Source: Nitrosotalea sp. (GTDB lineage Archaea > Thermoproteota > Nitrososphaeria > Nitrososphaerales > Nitrosopumilaceae). From it: a DNA stretch of 30,590 nt. Below, piece by piece: positions 11,183 to 18,848 of the stretch. Under the pieces are notes generated by a model that was not told the DNA's origin, did not search any database, and worked only from the letters and a program-made list of their open reading frames with translations. The stretch's first letter is position 1. Each line of letters starts with the position of its first letter. Where the stretch lies: assembly GCA_022545805.1 (NCBI GenBank), contig JAKEIJ010000095.1:1-30590 (forward strand). The letters are read 5' to 3'. A program made the position numbers and the translations under genes.

Positions 11183-12955
11183 TTATCGGTTCAAGATCTT
11201 CAAATATCTTCTATTTTTAACGTCCACAACACCAGTGTATAAGATTCTGATCTCAGGTAAAGCAAGAAATGGCAGGAAAAGAGGTATGAGATGAGGGTTT
11301 TTGAATTTGCATCCAGTCTCAACTAATTTAGAATCAATACTAGAATATTCATCGAGGGTTCTTTCAAAAGACAGTGAAGATATCAAGCCAGCAAGCGGTA
11401 ACGAGAATTTACTTAGGACATTATGGTTTTTAGCTACTAGCATACCGCCTTGCATCTTGGTCAAACTATTTGCAACAAAGGCCATGTCCTTTTCATTTGA
11501 ACCTATAACTATCATGTCATTTTCGTGAAAGCTCTGAGTACATCCAAATGCCCCGATATCAGCACCAAAATTTCTCAAAAATGCTACAGTTTTTTTTCCA
11601 GTGCCATATGTCCTATCAATAGCTGCTACCTTCCACACATCTTTATCAGGTGATGCCATTACATTGCTATCTTTTACTTGAAGCTCTTCTTGATCTACTT
11701 TTGTTATTATTTCAGTATCCAGTCGGATAACCAATGCTTGTGCGGTGTTCTCTTTACTTCGTACAACAAAGTCTTTTTCTTCAAACTTTGTTCCTGTTTT
11801 GACAGTTTTTTTCATCCAAGATGGAATTATGGTCTTTGGAGTGTTTACTACAAGGCTACTGTGAGCTACTACCAATTTTCCTCCTACAAAGACCTTGTTT
11901 GGTTTTATCTTTTCCAAATCGTCAAAGACTAGAATATCAGCTAATTTGCCAGGTGCTATTGCACCAAGATCCTTGCCCATTCCGTAATACTCAAAAGAAT
12001 TTCTTGATGCAATGGTTATAGCATCTATTGGATCCATGCCCATGGAGATTGATTTTCTGATACAATGATCAATTATGCCATACTCTGCTATGTCTTTGGG
12101 ATTAACCCCGTCAGTACAAAACATCAATCTATCAAGATATGTTTTATGAGACAATACGTTAGGCAGAATTTTATCCAAATCTCGTCTTATGGAACCCTCT
12201 CTCATCATTACCCACATCCCAAGTCTGAGTCTTTCTAAGACTTGATCATAATCAATCGGTTCGTGACATGAGAAAATTCCAGAGGCTATGTAGGCATTTA
12301 GTTTTTTATCACTTGCACCAGCAGTATGACCATTTACAATACCGCCATTTTTTAGAACATTTGATATGCTTTGAATTGTATCAGAATCCCTAGTAGTGAC
12401 TTTGGTCCAAGAAAAAACTTCCCCCAGACCAACTACGTTTTCAATATCTAGTCCTTTGACTTCTTCTTTTTTTGTCAGTGTCCTTGCATGGCTAAATTTT
12501 CTATCAACTGGTAGTCCCCCAGGAATTACATGATAAACCCTAATTGGAAGGCTCTGTGTCATTTTAATAAATTCCTTGAATCCCTTGTAGCCACAGACAC
12601 TTACAACATCAATTGGATCTGCAAACAAAGTGGTAGTTCCTGACAAGAGCGATTTTTTTGCAAGTTCTGATGGAAGAACATACTGGTCGATATGGATATG
12701 CGGATCTACAAATCCTGGTGTGATGTATCTATCCTGCAAATCAATGACACCGGTATTTTCTCCAACCGTATGAGATGCATCCTTTCCCACATAGGCAATT
12801 CTATCTTTTTTTATTGCCACATGAATTTGAGGTATGACTTCCCTTGAAAATACATTAACCAGCCTGCAATTTTTCAAGACAACATCTGCCTTGCTATCAC
12901 CCATAGCTACTGCATTGAGTGATAGAATCATGGAGGCAAGTGAACTGGCCTTCAT
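11183..12955 (-). CDS. adeC: Adenine deaminase
   Basis: Deaminates adenine to hypoxanthine for purine salvage, feeding IMP and thus guaB/guaA. The 590-residue protein belongs to the amidohydrolase superfamily. It has an N-terminal composite domain (KADVVLKNCRLVNVFSREV), metal ligands in PHIHID (85-90), a GHTAGASDKKLNAY segment, CHEPIDYDQV, MFCTDGVNP with the catalytic Asp, and the C-terminal adenine-deaminase domain. Length fits bacterial and archaeal Ade proteins (about 550-600). The ATG at 12955 is preferred because a TATA-like box lies 26 bases upstream; Met9 and Met18 are alternatives. It is divergent from rpl44e with 66 bases between. Confidence 0.92.
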   Translation of the reverse strand: MKASSLASMILSLNAVAMGDSKADVVLKNCRLVNVFSREVIPQIHVAIKKDRIAYVGKDASHTVGENTGVIDLQDRYITPGFVDPHIHIDQYVLPSELAKKSLLSGTTTLFADPIDVVSVCGYKGFKEFIKMTQSLPIRVYHVIPGGLPVDRKFSHARTLTKKEEVKGLDIENVVGLGEVFSWTKVTTRDSDTIQSISNVLKNGGIVNGHTAGASDKKLNAYIASGIFSCHEPIDYDQVLERLRLGMWVMMREGSIRRDLDKILPNVLSHKTYLDRLMFCTDGVNPKDIAEYGIIDHCIRKSISMGMDPIDAITIASRNSFEYYGMGKDLGAIAPGKLADILVFDDLEKIKPNKVFVGGKLVVAHSSLVVNTPKTIIPSWMKKTVKTGTKFEEKDFVVRSKENTAQALVIRLDTEIITKVDQEELQVKDSNVMASPDKDVWKVAAIDRTYGTGKKTVAFLRNFGADIGAFGCTQSFHENDMIVIGSNEKDMAFVANSLTKMQGGMLVAKNHNVLSKFSLPLAGLISSLSFERTLDEYSSIDSKLVETGCKFKNPHLIPLFLPFLALPEIRILYTGVVDVKNRRYLKILNR

Positions 12956-13300: not shown

Positions 13301-13497
13301 TGAAAAGAGCCCATATTTGGATACCAAAACCAGGAAGTAAATTCCAAAAGGTACAGTGTAAAGAATGCGGAGAAGAGAGTGTTGTTTATTCACATGTTTC
13401 TTCAATAGTAACATGTAAGGCATGCGGTAATACACTAGCAGAACCAACTGGTTCCATTGCAAAAACAAATGGAAAAATTTTAGGTAGCGCAGATTAA
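13300..13497 (+). CDS. rps27e: Small ribosomal subunit protein eS27 (S27e)
   Basis: Zinc-finger protein of the small subunit, 65 residues. CKECG and CKACG form the four-cysteine zinc site, and SIVTCKACGNTLAEPTG is the usual C-terminal block. It starts on the last base of the rpl44e stop (TAATG). Its last 18 bases overlap the 3' end of the convergent cobY gene. The L44e-S27e pair is common in archaea. Confidence 0.96.
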   Translation: MKRAHIWIPKPGSKFQKVQCKECGEESVVYSHVSSIVTCKACGNTLAEPTGSIAKTNGKILGSAD

Positions 13498-14064
13498 ATC
13501 ATAATCTTTCTTTGTGTTCAGATTAACAGCAATCCTTTTGTCATCAAGAACAACATAAGATTCCTTTACGGTTTCCATGTTTTTTATCCGTTGAGGATCA
13601 ACTATAGAGATTCCAGTATAAGCACATTCTTCATTATTATAATTAACAAAAAATTCTGCGTCCAATCCAAGAGACAAGAGAAAAGTTTTTCGCACCAGTA
13701 TACTTGTCCACGCATTTTCTTCATTTACCAGGCCTATAATTTTTTTAATTATTTCAGAATCAAAAAGTGGCATGTCGCCAGAAACCACAAAAATTATTTC
13801 TTCAAACTTAGAAAGAGATTCTCCCAGATCAGTAGAATATCCAGCACCCCTTGTTTCAAGTATGTCAACACCCAGACTAGAAATAAACTCACGTGTTTTT
13901 GGTGCGTTATTACTTGTAACACACACTATATTTGAAAATATTTTTGAATTTTGCAAAGCATTTAGAACATGTTCTATCAGCGGTTTTTTGTATCGTAGGA
14001 GTAGTTTTTCCTCGGAGGATCTCATCCTAGTACCCTTACCTCCACACATGACTAGCCCCATCAT
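13480..14064 (-). CDS. cobY: GTP:adenosylcobinamide-phosphate guanylyltransferase
   Basis: Activates adenosylcobinamide phosphate with GTP, the step before CobS. It is the archaeal CobY type, replacing bacterial CobU. The 194-residue protein has the nucleotidyltransferase loop MCGGKGTRM (6-14), a lysine in KKPLIEHVL and the metal-binding SGDMPLFD (95-102). The family is about 195-200 residues. It is the last gene of the cobalamin operon, and its ATGATG start overlaps the cobS stop by four bases. The 3' end runs into the convergent rps27e gene. Confidence 0.9.
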   Translation of the reverse strand: MMGLVMCGGKGTRMRSSEEKLLLRYKKPLIEHVLNALQNSKIFSNIVCVTSNNAPKTREFISSLGVDILETRGAGYSTDLGESLSKFEEIIFVVSGDMPLFDSEIIKKIIGLVNEENAWTSILVRKTFLLSLGLDAEFFVNYNNEECAYTGISIVDPQRIKNMETVKESYVVLDDKRIAVNLNTKKDYDLICAT

Positions 14065-14786
14065 ATCGATACAAAAATCAATAAAGACGCTAGTCTTACC
14101 AATTCATTGCTTGCACCAAATACATCGCCAGAAATTCCTCCAAAGTTCTTGTTTGCAACTATAAGCAATAGAAAAGACAATCCTACACATGATATTATTA
14201 CAAACACGCCTGTCATTCCTGCCAAAATCACAGTGGGTACTATTGCTAGTAGTATAGCTATGGTAAATTTTCTCGGATCTTTCATGGATTGAGTAAAAGG
14301 AGAACTTAGTCCTTCCCAAGCAGAAAGACCGCGATTTGCCTGTATTACCATGGACAGTTTAGCCATGAGTTCACTTAGAAGTATTGCCTCAAACAGTGCA
14401 AAACCTTTGGTCATGGAAATAGCCAATATCATACCTGCAGCATATAGAACAACTGTCATTACTCCGGCAGAACCGACTGCTGGATCTCTCATTGCCTGGA
14501 GTTTTTTTTCTCTTGTCCCCTTTGCCATTATTCCATCTGCAAAATCACATAATGCATCAGTATGATGCATTCCGGTTATCATAGCAAGTGCTCCGGTCAA
14601 GATAAGACCAGTAATAAGAGGTTGAAGAAAAAAAGATAAACCGTAACCTGCAGCACCAATAATTATTCCTATAAGAGCTCCTGCAATTGGAAAAAGATAC
14701 ATGTTCTTTGCTACAGTTTCCAGTTCACTATTCTTAGAAGGAATGATTGTTAGAAATGACACTACAGATGATATTCCCTTAAACAT
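14061..14786 (-). CDS. cobS: Adenosylcobinamide-GDP ribazoletransferase (cobalamin-5'-phosphate synthase)
   Basis: Membrane enzyme that joins AdoCbi-GDP with alpha-ribazole (or its phosphate) to make adenosylcobalamin. The 241-residue protein has about six hydrophobic segments. It has the catalytic Asp-rich motif HHTDALCDFADGIMAKG (74-90), then KLQAMRDPAVGSAGV (95-109) and the C-terminal FGGISGDVFGASNEL. I chose the ATG at 14786 (MFKGISSVVSFLTIIP), which matches CobS N-termini; the frame extends to a TTG at 14801. The start overlaps the cbiB stop by eight bases, so translation is coupled. Confidence 0.93.
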   Translation of the reverse strand: MFKGISSVVSFLTIIPSKNSELETVAKNMYLFPIAGALIGIIIGAAGYGLSFFLQPLITGLILTGALAMITGMHHTDALCDFADGIMAKGTREKKLQAMRDPAVGSAGVMTVVLYAAGMILAISMTKGFALFEAILLSELMAKLSMVIQANRGLSAWEGLSSPFTQSMKDPRKFTIAILLAIVPTVILAGMTGVFVIISCVGLSFLLLIVANKNFGGISGDVFGASNELVRLASLLIFVSI

Positions 14787-15768
14787 TAAACCACCAACCA
14801 AGATATGACAATGATAAAATCATAGGAATTGTAAAAAATAAAACAAATAATATCGTAGTCATTTTCATTATAGATATTGCAGATCGGAAATGTTTTTCAG
14901 TTATTTCAGAATTTCCATCCCCTAAAACATAGTGTTCCATCTTTTCAAATTTTATTCCAAGCGCACCAGCCAGAGTAGCCATTGGATAACCGGCATTTGG
15001 GCTTTCAGTCTTTGGACCATCTCTTTTCATGATATGAATCGAATTCTTCCAGTCCTCTCGTAGTATAATGCATGAAAATACCATAACAAAGCTAGTGAGT
15101 CTAGATGGAATAAAGTTGAGCACTTTATCGCAATTGGCTGCAAACCAGCCTATGTTTCGAAATATTTCTGTTTTATATCCAATCATTGAGTCAGCCGTGT
15201 TTACAGTTCGATACACAAATGCTCCAGCCAGGCCAAAAATTGAGAAATAGAATAGCGGACCTGTTATGCCGTCAACAATGTTTTCGCTGATGCTTTCAAG
15301 AGTTGCAGAAATTACGTGTTGTTTATCTAAATTTTTGGTGTCTCGTTTTACTATCATAGAAAGTTGTGTCCTTGCACCATCTAGGTCATTTTTTGCTATA
15401 GAACTCATGATTTTTGATGCATGCCCTTCCATTCCCTTTATCGCGATGGTGGTCTTTAGTAAAATTCCGACTAGAATTATACTTACACCCATGAATAGAA
15501 TTTTGTAAAGTTCATTGAGATCAAAACTTTCCACGTATTTCAAAGAAGACGAGAATGAAAGAATCAAAAAAGATACTAATGATACAACTAAAACAAGCAG
15601 AATGATACCGTTAATTTTTTCGGCAATCAGATTGGTAGATTTTGCATATGGTACTGACTTGCCAATCAATTTACCCATCCAAACGGTTGGATGATATCTA
15701 TTTTTTGGATCTCCAAAAATAAGATCAAGTCCAAGTGCAAATACAACTGCAATTATTGGTATCAGAAT
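14779..15768 (-). CDS. cbiB: Adenosylcobinamide-phosphate synthase with probable ATT start
   Basis: Membrane enzyme that attaches aminopropanol phosphate (or a related amino alcohol, made by CobD) to adenosylcobyric acid. The first ATG in frame, at 15678, is internal. Upstream of it the same frame encodes the conserved CbiB N-terminus: a hydrophobic helix, then LDLIFGDPKNRYHPTVWMGKL with the family's GDP...HP...W-G-LI pattern. No ATG, GTG or TTG lies between 15678 and the in-frame stop at 15801-15799. The best start is ATT at 15768, overlapping the cobQ stop by one base (TGATT, resembling TGATG). CTG at 15771 or 15765 and ATA at 15762 are alternatives. This gives 329 residues, near the family's usual 310-330. 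The remaining sequence has several TM helices and GYPMATLAGALGIKFEK. The family call is strong; the start codon is inferred. Confidence 0.88.
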   Translation of the reverse strand: MLIPIIAVVFALGLDLIFGDPKNRYHPTVWMGKLIGKSVPYAKSTNLIAEKINGIILLVLVVSLVSFLILSFSSSLKYVESFDLNELYKILFMGVSIILVGILLKTTIAIKGMEGHASKIMSSIAKNDLDGARTQLSMIVKRDTKNLDKQHVISATLESISENIVDGITGPLFYFSIFGLAGAFVYRTVNTADSMIGYKTEIFRNIGWFAANCDKVLNFIPSRLTSFVMVFSCIILREDWKNSIHIMKRDGPKTESPNAGYPMATLAGALGIKFEKMEHYVLGDGNSEITEKHFRSAISIMKMTTILFVLFFTIPMILSLSYLGWWFNV

Positions 15769-16613
15769 CAGTTTAACATACCTCGTATCATTTTCATATC
15801 AAGATTTTTTTTCACAATTAGAGCCAAATGATCTATTTCTTTGTCTAGTGTTGTAAGATATTTTTTTGTCCACGATACTTGTTTCGGGTTTGCATGTAAA
15901 GTATCTTCATCTGGTATGTCAAACTCAATTAAAGGAATTGTTCCAATTACTGGCTTCAGAGTTTTCTTTTTTAATATAGAATAGCTTGGATACAATATAG
16001 TCACATCTCCTCTAAACTTGTTTATGACAAACCCTTTGACAAGTTTTTGATGTTTTTTATCAAGAAGCGACAATGTCCCTACAATACTTGCAAAGCTTCC
16101 GCCCTTATCTATGTCAGTTATCAAGATTACAGGGGATTTACAATATTCTGCCATTCTCATATTTGCAATGTCATACCGTTGCAGGTTTATCTCTGATGGA
16201 GACCCAGCCCCCTCTAGTATCACAATGTCGTTTGTTTTCAGTAATTTGTCAAGTGCATTCTTTGATTCTTCGAGCCCTTTTGAGAGAGCAAATTTTTTGT
16301 AATAATCTCTAGCATGCATTTTACCATGGAATATACCATTTACAAAAATTTCACTTTTGTAATTTCCAAGGGGTTTTAATAAAATTGGATTCATTATGGG
16401 CATTATCTCGGTTCTTGCCGCAATTGCTTGAATGGCCTGAGCCCTTGAGATCTCAAATTCTCTGTCAACATAGGAATAAGAGGACATGTTCTGCGACTTG
16501 AACGGTGCCACTTTGTATCCAGCATCAGAGAAGATCCTGCAAAGAGCTGTAACTAGAGTCGTTTTTCCAGCACCTGAAGAAGTACCCTGAATCATCAAAG
16601 TTTTTGCAGTCAT
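15768..16613 (-). CDS. cobQ: Cobyric acid synthase lacking the glutamine amidotransferase domain
   Basis: CobQ/CbiP amidates the b, d, e and g side chains of adenosylcobyrinic a,c-diamide. The ATP-binding half is complete: P-loop GTSSGAGKTTL (10-20), FKSQNMSSYS, LEGAGSPSEINL, ITDIDKGGSFASIVGT, FVINKFRGDV and GTIPLIEFDIPDEDTL. Normal CobQ is about 480-500 residues, with a class I amidotransferase domain following that point. Here there are only 281 residues, and no cysteine nucleophile motif or PGSKNT-like motif is present. The last stretch, EIDHLALIVKKNLDMKMI, resembles the extreme C-terminus of full-length CbiP rather than the linker. The amidotransferase domain therefore appears to be missing from the middle, in frame. 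The ATG overlaps the cobD stop (ATGA). Confidence 0.88.
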   Translation of the reverse strand: MTAKTLMIQGTSSGAGKTTLVTALCRIFSDAGYKVAPFKSQNMSSYSYVDREFEISRAQAIQAIAARTEIMPIMNPILLKPLGNYKSEIFVNGIFHGKMHARDYYKKFALSKGLEESKNALDKLLKTNDIVILEGAGSPSEINLQRYDIANMRMAEYCKSPVILITDIDKGGSFASIVGTLSLLDKKHQKLVKGFVINKFRGDVTILYPSYSILKKKTLKPVIGTIPLIEFDIPDEDTLHANPKQVSWTKKYLTTLDKEIDHLALIVKKNLDMKMIRGMLN

Positions 16614-17686
16614 GATTTTCGTAATGCCTCGACCAGTTTTAGATTTTCTTTGTGGGTTCTAACTGCAATTCTTATGTAATTGTCATTTAATCCTCGAAAT
16701 GTACTACAGTCCCGTATGAGGATATTGTTTTGTAGTAACCTATTTTGAATTTGACGGGATTTTATTTTTGAGTTTATTAAAATAAAATTTGTATCAGAAT
16801 TATAACAAGTAAATCCCTTTATTTTTGATATGGAATTTGCAAGAAATTTCGACTCTTTTCTTATTACTTTTAATGTCTTTGACAAATGAGATTTGTCAGA
16901 TAATGCCCTGATAGATGATTGTTGTGCAATTCCACTAACATTCCACGGGATCTTTATCTTTTGTAGAATTTCAATCATCTTTTTATTGCCAAGTCCATAT
17001 CCAATCCTCAATCCTGCCAACCCAAATGACTTGGTCAAGGATCGAAGGATGAATAGGTTATCAAATTCTTTGAGATATGAGACAACGCTTTCGTCACCAC
17101 TAGGAACCAATTCAATGAAACATTCATCAAGAAACACCATTGCCGATTTTTTGTGTGCGGATTCAAGAATCTTTAACATGTTTTTTTTCTTTATGAGAAC
17201 TCCTGTAGGATTATTGGGGTTACATAGAAAGACAAAGCTTTTCATTGGAATTGCATCGTAGAATTCTGACAAGTTTTGGTTCAGATTCATTGTCTTGAAA
17301 AAATAGACCATTGCTCCGTTTAATTTTGCAGCAGACTCATATTCACTAAATGTAGGAATGGGAATCAACACTTTTTGTTTTCGTAGAAATGCAGCGCAAT
17401 AATTGTAGATGATTTCTGTGGCTCCATTTCCAACTATAATCTGATTTTTTGAGATTCCGGTGTATTTTTGAAGATGAGTTCTTAAGTCATTTGAATTAGG
17501 ATCTGGATAGATTGAAATCTGTGAATCATTTTTGAAAACATCTCTTACTTTGGTTGGAAATCCAAGAGGATTGACATTTGAGCTAAAATCTAACAGTTTC
17601 AAGTTATGTTCAAGTCCGTTTGAAAATATACCTCCGTGAGCGGCCACCTTGTGATTTGTTATGGTCTTTTCTACTCTAAGCCGCAT
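16610..17686 (-). CDS. cobD: L-threonine-O-3-phosphate decarboxylase (CobD)
   Basis: PLP enzyme that makes aminopropanol phosphate for the cobalamin nucleotide loop; it is the first gene of the operon. The 358-residue protein is of the histidinol-phosphate-aminotransferase fold. It has the CobD N-terminus AAHGGIF and LLDFSSNVNPLGFP (31-44), CNPNNPTG (155-162), Asp187 in FLDECF, and the PLP lysine Lys219 in RSLTKSFGLAGLRIGY. The C-terminal IRDCSTFRGL is also CobD-like. The open frame extends far upstream to 18097, but that part lies antisense to the asd gene and has no family similarity. The ATG at 17686 has a TATA-like box 26 bases upstream. HisC is the main alternative; context and the N-terminus favour CobD. 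Confidence 0.88.
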   Translation of the reverse strand: MRLRVEKTITNHKVAAHGGIFSNGLEHNLKLLDFSSNVNPLGFPTKVRDVFKNDSQISIYPDPNSNDLRTHLQKYTGISKNQIIVGNGATEIIYNYCAAFLRKQKVLIPIPTFSEYESAAKLNGAMVYFFKTMNLNQNLSEFYDAIPMKSFVFLCNPNNPTGVLIKKKNMLKILESAHKKSAMVFLDECFIELVPSGDESVVSYLKEFDNLFILRSLTKSFGLAGLRIGYGLGNKKMIEILQKIKIPWNVSGIAQQSSIRALSDKSHLSKTLKVIRKESKFLANSISKIKGFTCYNSDTNFILINSKIKSRQIQNRLLQNNILIRDCSTFRGLNDNYIRIAVRTHKENLKLVEALRKS

Positions 17687-17771: not shown

Positions 17772-18848
17772 ATGAAACGTGTAGCCATAATTGGAGTTAC
17801 TGGCGCAGTAGGCCAGGAATTTGTTCTAGCATTGAACAAGCATCCATGGTTTGAGGTAAAACAGATAGCTGCCTCTGAACGATCAGCCAACAAAAAGTTT
17901 GTAGATGCTATAAGAGATCCAAACAGTGGCATTTTGAAATGGCATTTGCGAGAGCCCATTCCAGAATACGTAAAAAATATGACAATTGATGCTGTAGACG
18001 ATATCAATCCAGAAAATTTTGATTTAATTTTTAGTTCAGTAGAAAGTGAAGCTGCAAGAGACATTGAAACAAAATTTGCAAAACATGTTCCAGTCATCAG
18101 TACATCTGCAGCATACAGATACGAAGCAGACGTTCCAATTCTAATTCCAGGAATAAATGATGACCATATTGGATTACTAGATATTCAGAGAAAGAACAGA
18201 GGTTGGAAGGGATTTGTAGCACCATTGCCAAACTGTACAACAACAGGACTTGCAATAACTATGAAGCCACTCTTAGACAAGTTTGGGGCTCAGAAGATAA
18301 TCATGACATCCATGCAAGCAATGTCAGGTGCAGGCAGATCACCTGGTGTTTCTGCACTAGACATAACAGACAACATAATTCCATTCATACCAAAGGAAGA
18401 GGATAAGGTAAGGCTAGAAACCGGAAAGATACTTGGCAAGTTTACAGATGGAAAAATTGATCCAGCAAAGATGAAAGTTAGTTGCACATGTACAAGAGTT
18501 CCAGTACTAGACGGTCATACTGAAACTGTATTTGTTGAAACTGCCACTCATGTTGACCCAGACAGTGTAAAAAAAGCCATGCAAGATTTCTCAAACAGTG
18601 TAAGCGTTACTGGATTGCCCTCTGCACCAAAAGAATATCTCATGGTTAATGAGGATCCTACAAGACCACAACCAAGACTAGATAGAGAGATCAATGAAGG
18701 AATGACTACAGTAGTTGGAAGATTAAGAGAAGATACAGTGTTTGATAACGGTATCAAGTATGTGCTTTTCTCACATAATGAGAAAATGGGTTCTGCAAAG
18801 GGTGCTGTATTGTTAGCAGAGATGCTATACAAAAAAGCCTACATCTAG
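17772..18848 (+). CDS. asd: Aspartate-semialdehyde dehydrogenase family protein
   Basis: Reduces aspartyl phosphate to the semialdehyde on the way to threonine, methionine and lysine. The 358-residue sequence is the archaeal/fungal-type Asd. It has the NADP-binding GVTGAVGQEF (8-17), catalytic Cys155 in PLPNCTTTGLA, the substrate/acid-base block TRVPVLDGHTE with His249, and GRLREDTVFDNGIKYVLFSHN near the end. The ATG at 17772 starts the standard KRVAIIGVTGAVG and has a well-spaced TATA-like box. Crenarchaeal malonyl-CoA reductases evolved from this same subfamily and share the active site, so an acyl-CoA reductase role cannot be excluded by motifs alone. Divergence from cobD fits Asd, since threonine is the CobD precursor. 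Confidence 0.88.
   Translation: MKRVAIIGVTGAVGQEFVLALNKHPWFEVKQIAASERSANKKFVDAIRDPNSGILKWHLREPIPEYVKNMTIDAVDDINPENFDLIFSSVESEAARDIETKFAKHVPVISTSAAYRYEADVPILIPGINDDHIGLLDIQRKNRGWKGFVAPLPNCTTTGLAITMKPLLDKFGAQKIIMTSMQAMSGAGRSPGVSALDITDNIIPFIPKEEDKVRLETGKILGKFTDGKIDPAKMKVSCTCTRVPVLDGHTETVFVETATHVDPDSVKKAMQDFSNSVSVTGLPSAPKEYLMVNEDPTRPQPRLDREINEGMTTVVGRLREDTVFDNGIKYVLFSHNEKMGSAKGAVLLAEMLYKKAYI

Follow-up and report, generated by a model that had tools for sequence, protein, structure and literature searches.

The window analysed here, a stretch of 30,590 nucleotides from a draft metagenome-assembled genome of Nitrosotalea sp. (208 contigs, 70.7% complete), carries a short form of cobQ/cbiP on its minus strand (15768..16613, ATG start, TGA stop), which encodes a cobyric acid synthase of 281 residues without a glutamine amidotransferase (GATase) domain. 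Upstream, on the same strand, lies a gene of the CobD/CobC type with an aminotransferase fold (16610..17686), a threonine-phosphate decarboxylase by its profile (TIGR01140, 291 bits, cut-off 290.55) that also passes TIGR01141 for hisC (278.7 bits, cut-off 276.55). Its reading frame opens at 18097 and the likely start is the ATG at 17686. Downstream, again on the minus strand, follow cbiB, for adenosylcobinamide-phosphate synthase (14779..15771; TIGR00380, 246.7 bits for the frame from an inner ATG, cut-off 165.9), cobS (14061..14801; TIGR00317, 161.2 bits, cut-off 110) and a gene for a cobY-like nucleotidyltransferase (13480..14064) that scored below both cut-offs (TIGR00454, 101.4 bits against 174.7; NF045495, 88.4 against 250). 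At both ends cobQ overlaps its neighbours, by its start with the stop codon of the upstream gene and by its stop with what appears to be a CTG start of cbiB (15771), so there is no room for a detached domain beside cobQ. The placement of cobQ between the cobD-like gene and cbiB is kept in relatives, two of which (L130 and L147) have ATG at the start of cbiB. An adenine-deaminase-like gene, for an ammonia-releasing enzyme, is found near the cob operon (11183-12955), with a ribosomal protein L44 gene between them on the opposite strand.

Residues 1-238 of the short protein (15900..16613, minus strand) form an ATP-dependent synthetase domain of the dethiobiotin-synthetase-like type with the P-loop GTSSGAGKT and the motifs EGAGSP and NKFRGD. 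This part matched NF001989, the 480-position profile for cobyric acid synthase, at 320.6 bits (cut-off 273), with residues 4-244 covering profile positions 1-241 only. TIGR00313, the other full-length family profile, gave 270 bits, under its cut-off of 309.9. Pfam returned PF01656/PF13500 and no match to the GATase family PF07685 at E 0.001. The synthetase ends with PDEDTL (residue 239), 19 residues follow, and then comes EIDHLALIVKKNLDMKMI, which aligns to the C-terminus of the full-length CobQ of relatives. Alignment to these relatives places a seam at residues 239-249 (15867..15899, minus strand), where full-length CobQ holds the GATase of about 200 residues; what is missing corresponds to residues 253-452, the GATase_3 region, of a 510-residue homolog (G042). 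The predicted product is thus confirmed as CobQ/CbiP with its synthetase half and tail and without the GATase, as the preliminary description had it, including its estimate of about 20 residues between the two retained parts.

Full-length CobQ/CbiP shares with the window protein the synthetase half, the C-terminal helix and the place in the operon, and a tree of synthetase halves agrees with this orthology; the window protein differs in having no GATase with a Cys-His dyad. Against TIGR00347, the family profile of the dethiobiotin synthetase BioD, the window protein scored 22.3 bits, far under the cut-off of 83.3. It was also well under the cut-offs for CbiA/CobB (NF002204, 38.9 against 254; TIGR00379, 33.0 against 261.4), which has the same two-domain plan, acts in the same pathway and is present in these archaea.

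An AlphaFold model of the window protein folds with high confidence, with lower values in the blocks at the seam (pLDDT 70-73). The retained tail (residues 250-281; 15771..15866, minus strand) makes up two helices, 250-270 and 273-280, that complete the synthetase fold, and the model of a full-length CobQ has the same tail as helices 478-496 and 499-506. When the window model was aligned on dethiobiotin synthetase, the alignment extended to the end of that chain. These models suggest that the synthetase fold ends with the tail as its last helix and that the GATase is inserted ahead of it, which would explain why the tail survives. Among solved structures, the long form brought up GatD entries and nothing else, and the short form had none.

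To follow the short form through related genomes we used the family and genus labels of the genome search tool (f1, f2, f3, f8, g1, g2, g25 and g48). Among 61 relatives examined, 36 of the 37 genomes of the window's genus carried a short CobQ; the remaining one, G008, is a draft of 63% completeness with only a weak cobQ match. One-contig genomes (G006, G035, G037 and G043) carry it as well, and in two closed genomes from the window's genus (G006 and G035) cobQ had a single match each and no full-length copy was found. Nor was a second cobQ found in the window genome, at its 70.7% completeness. A sample of 300 genomes from the order yielded 221 with a CobQ match, and the f1 and f8 matches listed had frames of 342 residues or less, apart from one of 613 (G271). 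In a second search of 80 chosen genomes, CobQ was short in 48 of 48 f8 genomes (frames of 283-342 residues), in all six f2 genomes of g2 (288-304) and in the eight f1 genomes that had been included as odd cases; among the latter it lay within a 487-residue frame in G276 and in pieces in G255 and G289. The 290-residue short CobQ of G128 comes from what we take to be the genome of N. maritimus SCM1.

AmoA was found in 45/48 of the f8 genomes, 7/7 of f2, 2/2 of f3 and 6/8 of the odd f1 cases, but in none of the 15 genomes from other families; in the window's genus it was found in 32 of 37, the five without it being drafts. The AmoA-negative genomes of the second search that had a CobQ (14/14) all had a long one, of 511-547 residues, with the catalytic Cys and His both kept; the AmoA-negative G126 gave no CobQ match at E 1e-25. 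A scan of 299 genomes of the phylum, at least 80% complete except for the window's own, gave 89 with a match, 56 in f1, f2 and f8 and 33 elsewhere. Long frames (462-634 residues, with domains read only in G408 and G490) accounted for 31 of these 33, and the remaining two genomes, G423 and G468, hold a distant paralog. The best 120 of 7544 matches in a protein search with the 281-residue CobQ were close relatives only. The short form is therefore nearly universal in the sampled AmoA-positive families f1 and f8 and in one genus (g2) of f2. The preliminary description had named two findings that would tell against it, a full-length cobQ elsewhere in the genome, and a GATase domain in all close relatives together with relaxed selection on this copy or an assembly deletion; the nearest relatives are also without the domain, and the incomplete window genome and the two closed genomes gave no full-length copy.

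Several loci departed from this pattern in other ways. The long frames of G271 (613 residues) and G276 (487) were considered as fusions and rejected, since their translations are a short CobQ that follows unrelated-looking sequence in an open frame. In G304 (L130:1647-2516) and G276 (L231:960-2396) the linker at the seam has apparently been duplicated or lengthened, which suggests that its length is tolerated. In four genomes cobQ is apparently frameshifted or interrupted by a stop, from sequencing error or recent loss (G255:C1:1142277-1143117, G248:C3:41747-42442, G036:C302 and G017:C8), and two of these, G017 and G036, are among the 36 of the window's genus. Three further loci (L248:453-1394, L249:1608-2549 and L250:366-1325) encode distant CobQ-like proteins of 313-319 residues that are also without a GATase, show EGTGPS or EGSGPS instead of EGAGSP, with no cob genes seen adjacent; by their sequences these belong to an amidoligase-like family that is uncharacterised. 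In G490, CobQ carries at its N-terminus a fused segment rich in Cys, CPYYPCHFEGQDCTWC (L251:1733-3625; compare PF04071 in P0048), and in G408 a segment of this type is a separate frame directly before cobQ (L252:998-1333).

Selection on the short gene was estimated from 23 genes taken from 30 loci of the window's genus, the other loci not fitting the extraction pattern. The median pairwise dN/dS was 0.082 (98 of 253 pairs, those with dS of 0.1-1.5), the synthetase by itself giving 0.074 (98 pairs) and the linker with the tail 0.156 (123 pairs), and the short cobQ of this genus is under purifying selection. At 67 synthetase positions that are at least 95% identical across 145 intact CobQ proteins, the window protein keeps 62; the changes are L45S, N46Y, G52E, Q88E and I133L. 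Two of them, L45 and Q88, also differ in the dead forms of CobQ and in those of f2, and the five positions may mark the former contact with the GATase. Together with the recurrence of the short form and the confident model fold, these results uphold the earlier reading of a functional domain loss, not a pseudogene, and the check that it proposed, whether the short form is conserved among relatives, came out positive in nearly all f1, f8 and f2-g2 genomes sampled. What did not stand was the treatment of the loss as a property of a single genome. Judged from the sequences, the state of CobQ is lineage-wide and includes inactive intermediates.

These intermediates fall into two groups. In f3 (G038 and G054) CobQ has 494-495 residues, the motif GTYIHG has become GCxLYG and YEIHMG is lost. 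A protein search with the G038 CobQ gave 28 such proteins (54-100% identity, one a 404-residue fragment), all 28 of which have Tyr at the catalytic His and three of which are also without the Cys. The second group consists of four CobQ of 435-449 residues in which the domain is shrunken and the Cys is replaced by Asp, Glu or Asn; one of the four no longer shows a GATase domain in the precomputed Pfam list. One of the group, P0049, carries the name Nitrosocaldaceae and has the same sequence as the CobQ of the f2 genome G083. AmoA was checked in three genomes with intermediates (G038, G054 and G083) and found in all three. None of the 32 intermediates keeps both Cys and His, compared to 145 of 145 in the intact set, which comprises proteins outside the intermediate groups, chosen before the full residue count with part of them seen earlier. 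By motif (Cys in GxCxG, His before Gly) this dyad is equivalent to C94 and H189 of GatD from S. aureus, in which C94A and H189A abolish glutaminase activity (PMC5871853). Relaxed evolution of the dead f3 domain was expected and was not seen: at equal synthetase divergence its identity was 0.527, against 0.493 for live domains. With conservation so close to that of live domains, the dead one may serve some purpose other than glutaminase, perhaps a structural one.

When 71 synthetase halves were placed in a tree (238 columns), the short, dead and shrunken forms of CobQ all grouped together (UFBoot 96). Within this group the short forms of f1 and f8 (99) stood opposite the dead f3 forms joined with a pair made up of the shrunken dead forms and the short f2 forms (84 and 88). 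A tree built from three genes, in which many data were missing (cbiB was recovered from 12 and the aminotransferase from 15 of the 21 genomes), joined G083 to two short f2 forms at 100 and, only weakly (44), f3 to f1 and f8; its other deep nodes stood at 58-80. AU tests did not reject trees in which all short forms were forced together, with p 0.13 in the three-gene analysis and p 0.32 in another. The tree of synthetase halves suggests that inactivation of the GATase preceded its deletion and that deletion occurred at least twice, two deletions being counted mainly because the f2 label of the search tool holds both g2 (short) and g48 (dead). The association of the loss with ammonia oxidation may come from one clade, i.e. 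from a single event.

Comparison of the sequences thus establishes the absence of the domain, its conservation and selection, the operon context and the presence, in related lineages, of intermediates with a GATase that is dead by its motifs. From this we consider it probable that the short protein is a working cobyric acid synthase that does without glutamine hydrolysis and is most likely fed by free ammonia. The standard reaction of cobyric acid synthase is glutamine-dependent, as stated in PMC7242693. In the mechanism that we propose, the short CobQ would use ATP and its synthetase alone to amidate (adenosyl)cobyrinic acid a,c-diamide at four carboxylates, drawing ammonia directly from the ammonium pool of the cell, and would still make cobyric acid.

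Free ammonia is the simplest nitrogen supply, and dependence on it is likely. Purified CobQ and CTP synthase can use ammonia in place of glutamine, which supports such a supply. That the pathway works is indicated by the reports that N. maritimus makes cobalamin de novo and exports it in cultures without a B12 supplement (PMC8281238), and that cultures are grown without vitamins (PMC4303638). The GATase motifs of CbiA, the enzyme of the first two amidations, are kept (AECGG and SY(M/T)H) in 14 of 14 f1, f2 and f8 genomes checked, so the loss is specific to CobQ. The same fact counts against free ammonia, since the other recognised GATases are kept, CbiA included, and ammonia would then not be generally sufficient. 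The habitats of many ammonia-oxidising archaea have very little ammonium or a low pH, which weakens the argument that they have ammonia to spare. A wider scenario, in which these archaea dropped glutamine for the last four amidations of B12 and use their ammonium pool, with the glutaminase switched off in a common ancestor, inactivation coming before deletion, and the dead domain then eroding and being deleted at least twice while intermediates stay alive, is put forward tentatively and falls somewhat short of an even chance.

The main rival to free ammonia is a GATase that acts in trans on the short CobQ, be it one of two orphans described below or one borrowed from another enzyme. A precedent exists in MurT/GatD, where a CobQ-type GATase with a Cys94/His189 dyad as its active site is a separate polypeptide (PMC5871853). 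Unlike in that system, there is no GATase gene beside the cobQ of the window, whose neighbours are the cobD-like gene and cbiB. PF07685 matched two frames in the incomplete window genome, PdxT-like and HisH-like (the latter below cut-off; both named by eye), and no further stand-alone PF07685 protein was found there. The closed genome G035 holds class I GATases that resemble, judged by eye from sequence, context and length, TrpG, CarA, GuaA, PyrG, PurQ, PdxT, HisH and CbiA, and in addition two orphans, oA and oB. The stand-alone oA, of 181-190 residues (L112:4420-4965, which is G035:C1:89422-89961; L133:1501-2055 in f3; L115:4485-5039 in f2; L116:4262-4831 in f8), has an intact Cys and HPE motif and is present at E 1e-30 or better in 125/132 f1, 58/70 f8, 7/7 f2 and 2/2 f3 genomes, the 19 without it being drafts. 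The distance between oA and cobQ is about 9 kb in both genomes of g25 and about 19 kb in five of the seven from f2; in g1, eight of the ten genomes compared have oA 12-14 kb from cbiA. However, oA also occurs in two AmoA-negative genomes in which CobQ was not found (G047 and G060) and in G056, where CobQ is intact, and as an exclusive partner of CobQ it was rejected for this reason. Its conserved neighbours are not cob genes: it is downstream of a large membrane protein, presumably UPF0182-like, in f1, f2 and f3 and upstream of a protein that looks C39/TPR-like by eye in f1 and f8. Long frames around oA in G276 and G208 showed no fusion partner recognisable by eye. The second orphan, oB (229 residues, L117:893-1582 in G035), has HLE replacing HPE and stands beside a gene that by eye is like that of an ADP-forming acyl-CoA synthetase; similar proteins occur in G006, G015, G037, G043 and G049, the last of which has an intact CobQ. 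Both orphans match PF00117, not PF07685, and their distribution and neighbours appear to give no tie to CobQ. The search for a stand-alone GATase that the preliminary description had proposed turned up class I orphans, none of them tied to CobQ. We regard supply in trans as less likely than free ammonia, but as a serious alternative.

Two other explanations would leave the gene without its original function. Fragmentation of the window genome and the apparent interruption of cobQ in G017, G036, G255 and G248 could point to a pseudogene or an assembly deletion, a reading so improbable that we reject it given the same form in one-contig genomes, the dN/dS of about 0.08 and the overlap with neighbours on both sides. 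It is also conceivable that the short protein has changed its job, to a partial amidation or a different amide-forming reaction, and that another enzyme makes cobyric acid; the five altered positions that are conserved in intact CobQ are in keeping with this. Against it, genomes of the same families gave no other strong match (E 6e-5 or worse, leaving aside second fragments of broken genes), cobQ still sits between the cobD-like gene and cbiB, and N. maritimus is reported to make cobalamin (PMC8281238). We consider a changed job very improbable, and a cobyric acid synthase fed by free ammonia remains our preferred reading.

In the open-licence literature, as far as its accessible text goes, no earlier report of a CobQ without a GATase was found. 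Passages of two papers have cobQ undetected in two of three genomes (PMC6964070) and present in five of six (PMC9530722), with no word on its length, and TIGR00313 served as a marker in PMC4303638. This profile scored the CobQ of G043 at 277.4 bits, again under the cut-off of 309.9, and its failure on this protein and on that of the window may explain missed annotations. A cobyric acid synthase free of glutaminase would change the nitrogen accounting of the B12 pathway, and the graded series of live, dead, shrunken and deleted domains is a readable record of an enzyme shedding a domain. According to a proposal in PMC4303638, ammonia-oxidising archaea rank with the most abundant producers of B12. 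If CobQ is indeed fed by ammonium, the B12 output of these major producers would depend directly on their intracellular ammonium.
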